Origin: Pedobacter arcticus A12
GTDB lineage: Bacteria > Bacteroidota > Bacteroidia > Sphingobacteriales > Sphingobacteriaceae
Assembly (NCBI RefSeq): GCF_000302595.1
Contig: NZ_JH947126.1
Span: 587,223-651,222, forward strand
Length of the DNA stretch: 64,000 nt
Direction of reading: 5' to 3'
The position numbers were made by a program, and so were the translations under genes. Below, piece after piece: positions 5,883-52,732 of the stretch (position 1 is the first letter of the stretch; each line of letters starts with the position of its first letter). The notes below the pieces were generated by a model. It made no database searches, was not told the DNA's origin, and saw only the letters and a list, made by a program, of their open reading frames with translations.

Positions 5883-6362
5883 TTAGGCTCTTAACGTTAA
5901 AGTCAGCTTTTTATAATCAATAACGGCGTTATAGTCTTTTAAGATATCGCCACCTAAAACACCTATAACTGGCGGTAATTCTAGTTTTTCGTAAGCAAAT
6001 TTGATTGCAGCTAAATCAAAAACCGGTGCTTCATAATCTTTAATAACCAAATCGCCCAATTTTAACTCGGGGCAAATCACATAATAACGCTCCATGGTAG
6101 TTGTGCCTAAACCAATTGCATGATGATCTGGTACATGGATAATTTGATCTTCTGGCGCTAAGCCAGAAACAATCTCCATATCAAAAGCAGATTTGGAAGC
6201 ACCTGTATCTAAAACAGCCTTAAAGGTTTGTCCAAAAACCAACAAATCCACCAAAAGGTGGAATCCGTCGCCCTGTAAGTCTATGAGTTCGAGGGGAAGA
6301 GAAAAAGCCTCACCCCAACCCTCTCCGAAGGAGAGGGGGCCACTTTCATTGTTGATATTCAA
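5883..6362 (-). CDS. Retropepsin-like aspartic protease (clan AA) with a REP-derived start
   Basis: 159 residues in the open frame. The DTGASKSAFD motif places the catalytic Asp at residue 52. The later hydrophobic-hydrophobic-Gly turn (PPVIGVLGGDILKDYNAVIDY) is typical of single-domain retropepsin-like proteins that act as dimers. The first 22 codons are unusual: residues 8-20 (GPLSFGEGWGEAF) are the translation of a REP-like palindrome that lies across the 5' end of the gene. The natural start may once have been next to LPLELIDLQ (residue 22 on), where the conserved part begins, and no ATG is now present there. The real start could be the ATG at 6362 or a downstream TTG/GTG near 6255. The substrate is unknown. 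Confidence 0.7.
   Translation of the reverse strand: MNINNESGPLSFGEGWGEAFSLPLELIDLQGDGFHLLVDLLVFGQTFKAVLDTGASKSAFDMEIVSGLAPEDQIIHVPDHHAIGLGTTTMERYYVICPELKLGDLVIKDYEAPVFDLAAIKFAYEKLELPPVIGVLGGDILKDYNAVIDYKKLTLTLRA
6307..6340 (+). repeat. REP-like palindrome, left member of a head-to-head pair
   Basis: The core CCCTCTCCGAAGGAGAGGG palindrome is preceded by the tail GCCTCACCCCAA. The same unit in inverted orientation is at 6421-6453, and two further copies are at 52587-52620 and 52702-52732. This one overlaps the 5' coding end of the retropepsin-like gene. Confidence 0.85.
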
Positions 6363-6420
6363 TATTGACTATTTGTTAAAATAAATTTGTCGCCCTAGTT
6401 TTCCGTAAAATAAGAAAAAT

Positions 6421-6453
6421 CCCTCTCCTTCGGAGAGGGATTTAGGGTGAGAC
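6421..6453 (-). repeat. REP-like palindrome, right member of the pair
   Basis: The core CCCTCTCCTTCGGAGAGGG with the tail ATTTAGGGTGAGAC is inverted relative to 6307-6340 and is separated from it by about 80 bases. It directly abuts the mdh stop codon, so the mdh transcript would end in this stable hairpin. Confidence 0.85.
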
Positions 6454-7379
6454 TATAAATCCAACACGTTATTCATTGTTCTAACAGCATCAGCACTTTT
6501 GTTGAATTGCGCTTGCTCATCGGCACTTAGTTTAAAGTCAAGGATTTTCTCCCAGCCATTTTTACCCAAAATAACCGGAACCACCAATGAAATATCTTTT
6601 TGTCCGTACTCTCCATCTAAAGCAACACCACAAGAAATCAGTTTTTTCTGATCACGTACAATTGACTCAACCATAAAAGCTGTTCCAGCACCTGGCGCAA
6701 ACCAAGCAGAAGTACCAATCAGTTTAGTTAAGGTTGCACCACCCACCATTGTTGCGGCAACTACTTTATCTTGTTGTTCTTTACTTAATAACTGAGTTAC
6801 CGGAACGCTGTTCCAAGTAGCATGATGAATTAAAGGAATCATCGTAGTATCACCATGACCACCAATAACTACCGAGTTTAAATCTGCCGGAGAACAGTTT
6901 AATTCTTGACTTAAGTAATATTTGAAACGAGCAGAATCTAAAGCACCGCCCATACCAATAATTTTTTCTTTAGGTAAACCAGAGCTTTTTAAAGTTAAAT
7001 AGTTCATGGTATCCATTGGGTTAGCAACCACAATGATAATAGTGTTTGGAGAGTACTTCAACACGTTTTCTGTTACCGATTTAACGATGCCAGCATTTGT
7101 GCCGATTAACTCTTCACGGGTCATCCCTGGTTTACGAGGAATACCAGATGTAATCACAACCACTTCAGAATCCGCAGTTGCAGCGTAGTCGTTAGTAACT
7201 CCTTTAATTTTTGTATCGAAGCCATTGTAAGCAGCCGTTTGCATCATATCAATAGCCTTACCTTCAGCAAAACCTTCTTTGATGTCTAACAAAATTAATT
7301 CTTCCGATAACTCTCTTCTAGAGATGTTATCAGCACAGGAAGCTCCAACGGCACCCGCTCCAATTACGGAAATTTTCAT
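6453..7379 (-). CDS. mdh: Malate dehydrogenase
   Basis: 308 residues, an LDH-like NAD-dependent malate dehydrogenase of the TCA cycle. The dinucleotide-binding GAGAVG motif is at residues 7-12 and the acidic NAD-selecting Asp at 32. The substrate-specificity loop IPRKPGMTR carries Arg82 and Arg88. Asn120, Asp148/Arg151 and the catalytic His175 (GGHGDTTM) are in place. Arg82 in the mobile loop selects oxaloacetate over pyruvate, which supports MDH over LDH. It is transcribed away from hscA, and the 352-base divergent gap presumably holds both promoters. A REP-like hairpin abuts its stop codon. Confidence 0.95.
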   Translation of the reverse strand: MKISVIGAGAVGASCADNISRRELSEELILLDIKEGFAEGKAIDMMQTAAYNGFDTKIKGVTNDYAATADSEVVVITSGIPRKPGMTREELIGTNAGIVKSVTENVLKYSPNTIIIVVANPMDTMNYLTLKSSGLPKEKIIGMGGALDSARFKYYLSQELNCSPADLNSVVIGGHGDTTMIPLIHHATWNSVPVTQLLSKEQQDKVVAATMVGGATLTKLIGTSAWFAPGAGTAFMVESIVRDQKKLISCGVALDGEYGQKDISLVVPVILGKNGWEKILDFKLSADEQAQFNKSADAVRTMNNVLDL

Positions 7380-10683: not shown

Positions 10684-11197
10684 ACCTCGGGGCAGAGCCC
10701 CAGAGGTATTAGAACATTTCTAACTGTTGACTGTGTATTTTTTTATATTCTTCTGCTTTTCCTTGAGACTTTACATAATTCTGAATTGTACTCTCATCTC
10801 CATGTTTCCCAACTGTGTTAACATAAAACCCTTTAGACCAAAATTCTCCGCCCCACAATTTCAGCTTAACCTCAGGATGTCTTTTGAAAATCTCTTTTGC
10901 TGTGATACTTTTTACAGTTCTAATTATTTTTGTTGGACTTTCAATAGGTACACTCTGAATCAGAAAATGAACATGGTCTTTATCTGTCCCAATTTCAATG
11001 AAAATTATATCATACCGTTTAGAAATCTCAACACAAATTTCTTTTAGACTGATATCAACCGCTTCACTGAATACCACTCGCCTATATTTTGCCGGACATA
11101 CAAAATGATATAATAAAACTGATACATTATGCTTCTTATGAATATATTCGCTCACATACCGAAATTACAAAAAAATCGAAGCAGAGCTTCGAGGAAT
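10684..11197 (-). mobile_element. IS200-type insertion sequence (approximate ends)
   Basis: A single transposase gene is flanked by imperfect subterminal hairpins of one style. The left hairpin is at 10684-10707 (stem around GGGGC-AGA-GCCCC with one bulged base), touching the tnpA stop. The right one is at 11176-11192 (TCGAAGC-AGA-GCTTCGA) followed by GGAAT. Both have an AGA loop and the same orientation, as expected for single-strand transposition by IS200/IS605 elements, which have no terminal inverted repeats. The exact cleavage sites are not determined. Confidence 0.7.
10709..11155 (-). CDS. tnpA: IS200/IS605-family transposase TnpA (Y1 HUH)
   Basis: 148 residues. The HUH metal motif is His61-Val-His63 (DKDHVHFLIQ) and the nucleophile is Tyr127 (IQNYVKSQG), the same spacing as in the IS608 enzyme. 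The WGGEFWSKGFYVNTVG segment near 101-116 is typical of the family. It acts as a dimer on single-stranded DNA and recognises the subterminal hairpins that flank the gene. It is intact with no frameshift, so the element may be active. No tnpB accessory gene is present. Confidence 0.93.
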   Translation of the reverse strand: MSEYIHKKHNVSVLLYHFVCPAKYRRVVFSEAVDISLKEICVEISKRYDIIFIEIGTDKDHVHFLIQSVPIESPTKIIRTVKSITAKEIFKRHPEVKLKLWGGEFWSKGFYVNTVGKHGDESTIQNYVKSQGKAEEYKKIHSQQLEMF

Positions 11198-52575: not shown

Positions 52576-52586
52576 TTATAGAAAGC

Positions 52587-52620
52587 CTCACCCCCCAACC
52601 CCCTCTCCGAAGGAGAGGGG
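52587..52620 (+). repeat. REP-like palindrome, left member of the second pair
   Basis: A core CCCTCTCCGAAGGAGAGGG with a CCTCACCCCCCAACC tail. It is head-to-head with 52702-52732 at about 80 bases spacing, as at 6307-6453. Confidence 0.85.
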
Positions 52621-52701
52621 GAGCAAAGGATGTGCATAGTGGCTATTTTTTCATTGGGTTATTAATAAGTTCATTAGTCATTACCGTTAGCAGGTAACTC
52701 C

Positions 52702-52732
52702 CTCTCCTTCGGAGAGGGTTGGGGTGAGGCCT
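52702..52732 (-). repeat. REP-like palindrome, right member of the second pair
   Basis: A core CCCTCTCCTTCGGAGAGGG with a TTGGGGTGAGGC tail, ending one or two bases from the pcm stop codon. Confidence 0.85.

Follow-up and report, generated by a model that had tools for sequence, protein, structure and literature searches.

In-frame REP palindromes at the probable start of a retropepsin-like gene of Pedobacter arcticus and a possible link of these palindromes to DUF559 nucleases

The window analyzed here is a stretch of 64,000 nt of Pedobacter arcticus A12 (GCF_000302595.1, contig NZ_JH947126.1, positions 587,223–651,222 of the forward strand), whose genome is called G000 below. Between the genes for malate dehydrogenase (mdh) and a retropepsin-like protease lies a doublet of two inverted REP palindromes with their heads outward, 146 bp in length and composed of units of ∼32–36 bp (Table 1). 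The stem CCTCTCCGAAGGAGAGG is found at 6320–6336 and its inverted copy at 6422–6438. With up to three mismatches, eight strand-hits of this stem were observed in the window (both strands at each of four sites), where shuffles predict 0.06, and with up to two mismatches the whole genome contains 50 strand-hits, corresponding to 49 sites; the palindrome is thus multi-copy and dispersed. At one mismatch or fewer, the window genome shows 41 strand-hits and the 17 other genomes of the genus 0–15, a comparison that favors the window genome because the query was its own stem. The majority of copies are single, and inverted doublets are represented by the two pairs in Table 1 and a few further pairs. 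The head is of the CCTCACC type (GCCTCACC / GGTGAGGC), and a GTAG or CGTC tag is absent from the REP end. Read by eye, the consensus is open in five of six frames. Against the junction spacer, no signal came from those of the pairs at 52602, L087, and L092, whose scores were equaled by 95 to 398 of 500 shuffles; for the spacer of L078, the score was reached by 17 of 500 shuffles locally and 133 globally. These comparisons do not point to a common spacer of the REP pairs.

Table 1. Features of the mdh/retropepsin junction and related elements in the window
Feature	Position	Strand	Remarks
Retropepsin-like aspartic protease gene, read from TTG 6362	5883..6362	-	159 aa, the conserved core beginning with LPLEL at residue 22
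Small hairpin, retropepsin codons FHLLV	6247..6262	-	TCCACC-TTTT-GGTGGA; kept in many relatives
Inner REP	6307..6338	+	Head GCCTCACCCC, stem CCCTCTCC-GAA-GGAGAGGG; minus strand open in frame, part of residues 8–20
Spacer between the two REPs	6339..6416	.	Contains the TTG and first codons; ATG 6349 there is out of frame
Putative TTG start codon	6360..6362	-	No other ATG/GTG/TTG precedes the core in frame, as also in G008, G010, G012, G013
Outer REP of the inverted pair	6417..6452	-	Adjoins the mdh stop codon; on the mdh strand resembles a terminator, with TTCTTATTTT after the hairpin
mdh (malate dehydrogenase)	6453..7379	-	C terminus VLDL*; stop codon 6453–6455
Second inverted REP pair, same family, other spacer	52586..52731	.	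Stem matches in the window

From TTG 6362, the minus-strand ORF reads MNINNESGPLSFGEGWGEAFS, followed by the conserved core LPLELIDLQGDGFHL. The protein matches Pfam PF13650 (Asp_protease_2) at 1.2e-7, above the cut-off, and carries a DTGA motif. An AlphaFold2 model built from 26 alignment rows has a mean pLDDT of 83.7, with residues 19–28 as the first predicted strand. In Foldseek, the model matches best to 5c9b_B, the Rickettsia conorii retropepsin-like protease (TM 0.54 by query length, E 1e-5), and a profile search of PDB sequences with the window protein returned nothing at E 0.01. By family profile and predicted fold, the window protein is a retropepsin-like aspartic protease. The leader (residues 1–20) has pLDDT block means of 41 and 64, which proves little, since this part is missing from the other alignment rows, which start at the core.

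An earlier, sequence-only reading of this locus had taken residues 8–20 of the open frame to be a translated palindrome, and indeed these residues (GPLSFGEGWGEAF) are encoded by the palindrome plus its head. It had also placed the beginning of the conserved protein at LPLEL with no in-frame ATG upstream, which the homologue alignment and the inventory of starts confirm: an in-frame stop lies 24 codons upstream of the core, and the candidates in between are ATA, TTG, and ATC. Its suggestion that a new ATG in the spacer took over fails, as ATG 6349 sits in the +1 frame and reads MKVAPSPSERVGVRLFLFPS; an in-frame spacer ATG was rejected as the start for this reason. Of the alternative it offered, a TTG or GTG within the frame, the TTG fits as far as the sequence tells. 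TTG is a weak start codon.

The retropepsin-like gene was found in 40 of the 60 genomes of a first search (the window's own included), in 364 of 399 genomes of the family, and in 13 of 18 genomes of the genus. Eight of the 13 genus homologues have an ATG 5–9 codons before the core, and in four of these (G011, G006, G004, and G002) it overlaps the mdh stop as TAATG. The remaining five (G000, G008, G010, G012, and G013) have TTG alone, 16–21 codons before the core. Outside the genus, an in-frame ATG is present 3 to 23 codons before the core in 32 of 35 loci, the exceptions being L016 and L017 with TTG only and L022 with GTG only. The REP pair fills the junction in G000, G008, and G010, where the inner REP is open in frame after the TTG; the outer REP has diverged in G008 and G010. 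The mdh tail is VLDL* or VLEL* in these three genomes and VLxDSNLI* or similar in the ATG types. G012 and G013 combine the TTG with a 16-codon leader and a VLEL* mdh tail without a recognizable REP; as no more than a guess, their leader (CTCTCTTTCAATTAGAGA) might be a decayed REP. In G014, a decayed REP lies at the junction behind an intact mdh stop and is followed by the ATG. A pattern search for REP plus retropepsin detected the arrangement in at least two of the 399 family genomes (G000 and G008), a lower bound since the exact pattern misses G010. The sequence-only reading had expected relatives without the palindrome to have an ATG at the core; among the ten genus homologues without a recognizable in-frame REP, an ATG lies near the core in eight, but only a TTG is available in G012 and G013, and these two speak against that reading.

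In a tree of rpoB DNA, the window genome groups with seven ATG-type species in one clade (95/98). G008, G010, G012, and G013 form a separate clade, with ATG-type G002 as sister (99/99), although the branching within these four is unsure (70/48). A constraint grouping the five TTG types was rejected on rpoB (p-AU 8e-48), and the mdh and retropepsin protein trees likewise separate the window genome from the other TTG clade. Because the three carriers of the REP pair among the TTG types fall in two clades, REPs probably entered the mdh/retropepsin junction at least twice, in addition to the insertion in G014. In the clade of G008, G010, G012, and G013, the TTG may predate the REP: given TTG and VLEL* in REP-less G012 and G013, the change of start there need not be due to the REP. 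Either these two may have lost the REP, or G008 and G010 may have gained it later.

Nei-Gojobori estimates for the core gave dN 0.017 and dS 0.113 for G008/G010, dN 0.065 and dS 0.595 for G008/G013, and dN 0.016 and dS 0.184 for the ATG-type pair G006/G004. The core in the TTG clade is under purifying selection, like the ATG-type pair. The leader of G008/G010 shows five nonsynonymous and two synonymous changes; with dN far below dS in the core and a freely changing leader, the protein is kept and the leader is free to vary. For G000/G017 (core dN 0.095, dS 1.14), much of the divergence may predate the insertion; selection in the window lineage alone was not separable.

Taken at the level of sequence, these comparisons suggest that a REP doublet probably entered the junction, that the ATG was lost, and that translation now starts at TTG 6362 and passes through the inner REP. 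The doublet would have inserted at the place of the relatives' start, an ATG that overlaps the mdh stop or closely follows it, leaving the window lineage without the original ATG and with an mdh tail shorter by about four residues. Initiation would most likely occur at the TTG in the spacer, and the 13-residue translation of the REP would be a tolerated leader ahead of the first conserved strand. Two species of the second clade, G008 and G010, share this layout, with a TTG that is perhaps older than the REP. The proposal of the sequence-only reading that a REP supplies coding sequence is favored indirectly by the sole start codon, the purifying selection on the core in the TTG clade, and the same layout in G008 and G010; the arrangement is not unique in the genome. 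Its further proposal, insertion over the original ATG, agrees with the seven ATG-type clade-mates of the window genome and with the 32 of 35 outgroup loci that have an ATG; G012 and G013, which are REP-less yet have only the TTG, do not conform to it. On the mdh side, a terminator scan picks out the outer REP and its T-rich tail, read along the mdh strand, as one of four predicted sites in the window (1.3 from shuffles), and the junction RNA folds strongly (z −8.4), as expected of an inverted pair. The outer REP may end mdh transcripts and uncouple mdh from the retropepsin gene.

Whether the leader is translated at all bears on this reading. A start inside the core, at a TTG or GTG among codons 15–19, or loss of the start with decay of the window gene, would leave the REP untranslated. 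Alternative start codons do occur at core codons 15–16 in 12 of the 13 genus genes (elsewhere in the core in G001), and in a survey of other bacteria many N-terminal REPs, including most of those at the 5′ end of ORFs in P. putida, C. koseri, and S. maltophilia, were judged probably not coding (PMC3733652). Since the window REP agrees with the consensus, its insertion seems to be of recent date, and gene decay might not yet be visible. However, starts at core codons 15–19 would remove the first predicted strand and the invariant residues L29, G33, F34, and H35, and in the TTG clade purifying selection acts on the core, the window lineage alone not being separable; an untranslated REP thus appears quite improbable. 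Initiation at ATG 6349, with the protease produced by frameshifting or re-initiation, would make use of a stronger codon in an A-rich context, but the frame of this ATG closes at a TAG early in the core and G008 and G010 have no ATG at the corresponding place, and this possibility is given very little weight.

The order and number of insertions can also be viewed differently. The TTG could have come first, with REPs inserted later into an already long leader that they merely lengthened. The REP-less TTG genomes G012 and G013, next to REP-bearing G008 and G010, are what such an order would leave behind; however, the window genome's seven clade-mates that have the gene are all of the ATG type, the branching among the four TTG genomes is unsure, and the leader of G012 and G013 may itself hold a decayed REP, if our guess is right. 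For the junction as a whole, this order is considered rather unlikely. A single insertion, in which an ancestral REP pair was kept in both TTG clades and lost elsewhere, or was passed sideways, would account for the shared junction, orientation, and TTG and for the VLDL* and VLEL* mdh tails. The spacer of the window also shows weak similarity to those of G008 and G010, the global score being reached by 15 and 3 of 500 shuffles and the local score by 46 and 25. Since this is locally no better than for the unrelated L078 (17 of 500), the similarity neither shows nor excludes a shared or transferred insertion. Against a single event stand the three gene trees and the decayed REP of G014, which lies at the same junction after an intact mdh stop. 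The ATG types and outgroups also have in common a longer mdh tail and a nearby ATG, both of which loss would have to restore repeatedly. A single origin is therefore unlikely, and separate insertions, with a TTG start in the window lineage, remain the preferred reading.

The junction would be part of a wider pattern, in which the same palindromes lie in frame in many genes. In the window genome, 18 of the 49 REPs fall within 15 Pfam-supported ORFs, the retropepsin gene included; ORFs of at least 90 aa were considered, and the count leaves out L098 (a 334-aa ORF with a REP and no Pfam hit) and a 130-aa ORF of L072. The REP is N-terminal in four ORFs (retropepsin, a Cys/Met enzyme, MurD, and an amino acid kinase) and C-terminal in six, where it may simply have supplied the last codons. 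Internal REPs occur in AspRS, ValRS, LeuRS (three), a MiaB-like radical SAM enzyme (two), and a semialdehyde dehydrogenase. REP-less homologues were compared for the retropepsin, AspRS, ValRS, and LeuRS. The MiaB-like enzyme (L078, 1273–2892), named so from its domains, contains a whole inverted REP pair with its spacer in frame within the radical SAM domain.

The aspS gene was compared across the 17 genus genomes that have it (L136–L152). One loop of AspRS holds an in-frame REP in ten of them, in one orientation in G000, G017, G014, and G013 and in the opposite orientation in G004, G007, G008, G005, G015, and G016. The REP is decayed in an eleventh (G003) and absent in G011, G006, G001, G010, G012, and G002. 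Closely related species differ in the state of this loop. The solved AspRS structure 6wom has a gap at the REP-bearing loop. The ValRS REP was found in G000 and G007. In their sequences, the palindromes are present in frame in unrelated conserved genes, as in RPE-type coding palindromes.

A candidate for the enzyme that moves these palindromes was suggested by leuS. In the window genome (L096/L134), a DUF559 domain lies in frame between the first two REPs, in the editing domain of LeuRS, flanked by inverted palindromes with their heads outward (L134). Across the genus (leuS loci L156–L172), this REP-DUF559-REP arrangement is present in six members with the same REP family and absent in close relatives, while leuS of G003 and G015 carries DUF559 with other repeat translations (PPEGGS/PPSGAGG). 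In this alignment, the row of G004, a genome with a listed contamination of 7%, is a foreign ORF and was set aside, and the rows of G005 and G015 are partial. By eye, REPs appear more numerous in genus members with a DUF559-bearing leuS.

DUF559 is present in 57 of 99 genomes of the class Bacteroidia. Thirty loci were analyzed, namely the best-scoring locus from each of 29 other genomes plus L134, and 17 of them are in ORFs of 780 aa or more. Ten of the large ORFs were scanned with Pfam and comprise LeuRS (four), MetH (three), acetyl-CoA synthetase (two), and HsdR (one). DUF559 is in frame in the large ORFs L196–L200, L204–L206, L208, L212–L214, L216, L220, L222, and L223, many of which have palindrome-like translations beside it. 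REP-like hairpins, defined by pyrimidine or purine arms, accompany 29 of the 30 loci (on both sides in 21, on one side in eight, and on neither in one); 50 of the 60 flank windows contain such a hairpin, against 15/380, 14/356, and 1/408 in controls (≤4%). CCTCACC-type heads lie on the outer side of the hairpin in 20 of 25 upstream and 15 of 25 downstream windows and on the inner side in four upstream and nine downstream windows; a hairpin with this head occurs in 0/326 controls. The two flanks match each other best in inverted orientation in just 11 of 30 loci, and no REP of this family lies beside the other DUF559 gene of the window genome, both of which argue against a simple transposon picture.

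In classical REP systems the palindromes are moved by a RAYT, a Y1 transposase, and the window genome does have ten Y1_Tnp hits. Three of these are short and divergent like RAYTs, and we presume them to be such. However, the REP stem is found at none of the ten Y1 loci (∼1.5 kb on each side), the RAYT-like loci L111 and L113 have, by eye, other repeats on both sides, and the REP head is CCTCACC without the GTAG or CGTC tag. A RAYT as the cognate enzyme was rejected, no stem being shared with the REP family, and mobilization by a RAYT more generally is regarded as doubtful. The association at the DUF559 loci suggests that the mover is more likely the REP-flanked, Vsr-like DUF559 nuclease. Tentatively, and with somewhat less confidence than an even chance would warrant, the CCTCACC palindromes can be pictured as the ends of a mobile REP-DUF559-REP unit of Bacteroidia, a RAYT-less REP system spread by the nuclease. 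The unit and its short REP derivatives would reside in frame and unspliced in host proteins (LeuRS, AspRS, ValRS, MetH, Acs, and HsdR), would come back to the same sites in related species, and would have re-made the start at mdh/retropepsin. With five of the palindrome's six frames open, life in frame within host proteins would be possible. Separately, the RAYT-like gene of L111 (1255–1800) lies inside an array of a different repeat (GAACGAGCTACAAGCTCGCACTAGCGGAG), and the window itself carries at 10763–11125 (minus strand) one of five IS200-like Y1_Tnp copies of identical score and ORF length.

Coding palindromes are already known. In Rickettsia, mobile palindromic elements (RPEs) lie in frame in unrelated genes, some at shared or hot-spot positions (PMC10969869; PMC3767692), and REPs inside ORFs, including those of tRNA synthetases, have been described; in two Xanthomonas, recB carries one at roughly the same position (PMC3733652). 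Compared by published description, the palindromes reported here resemble RPEs in lying in frame inside unrelated genes, at some positions shared between relatives. They differ in belonging to another phylum, in their ∼32–36-bp units or 146-bp doublet, in the CCTCACC head, and in the REP-flanked nuclease domain. Like the GTAG/CGTC REPs and REPINs that go with RAYTs (PMC3733652; PMC6006769), they are short, multi-copy, and single or in inverted doublets, some of them in ORFs, but the head tag is different and the REP lies beside a DUF559 domain and at no Y1 locus of the window genome. RAYTs of Bacteroidetes have been described (PMC6006769), and in the part seen of a paper on P. gingivalis repeats, "palindromic" is used for CRISPR alone (PMC5771137). 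DUF559 is a Vsr-like nuclease domain represented by Caulobacter VsrA, a predicted mismatch-repair enzyme (PMC12907096). The Bacteroidia proteins share with VsrA the DUF559 domain of the PD-(D/E)XK superfamily; unlike it, they have REP-like flanks and are often inside host enzymes. The modeled protease has the fold of the R. conorii retropepsin-like protease (PDB 5c9b/5c9f), with 17%–20% identity over the match, but its gene lies next to mdh and has a REP-derived leader. In literature judged partly from abstracts and passages, with subscription journals and preprints mostly outside its scope, no link of DUF559 with REPs was found, nor any report of the CCTCACC REP family in coding sequence. Within that scope, the DUF559-REP pairing and the repeatedly hit sites look new.

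If the proposed reading is true, selfish DNA has been placed repeatedly within enzymes, tRNA synthetases included, beyond mere intergenic tolerance, and at one spot has replaced the start of a gene. Were DUF559 the mover, this would assign a task to a domain whose function is still given as unknown in Pfam, and REP spread would gain a second enzymatic route. For annotation, the case would be a warning that such N-terminal extensions can be real and that start codons are not transferable between relatives.

A further palindrome lies within the retropepsin core. The hairpin TTCCACC-NNNN-GGTGGAA over the codons FHLLVE retains at least six of seven pairs in 21 of the 35 loci outside the genus, and apparent paired changes occur in L018 and L020 (6247–6262 in the window). 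This hairpin may reflect a codon constraint or an RNA element.
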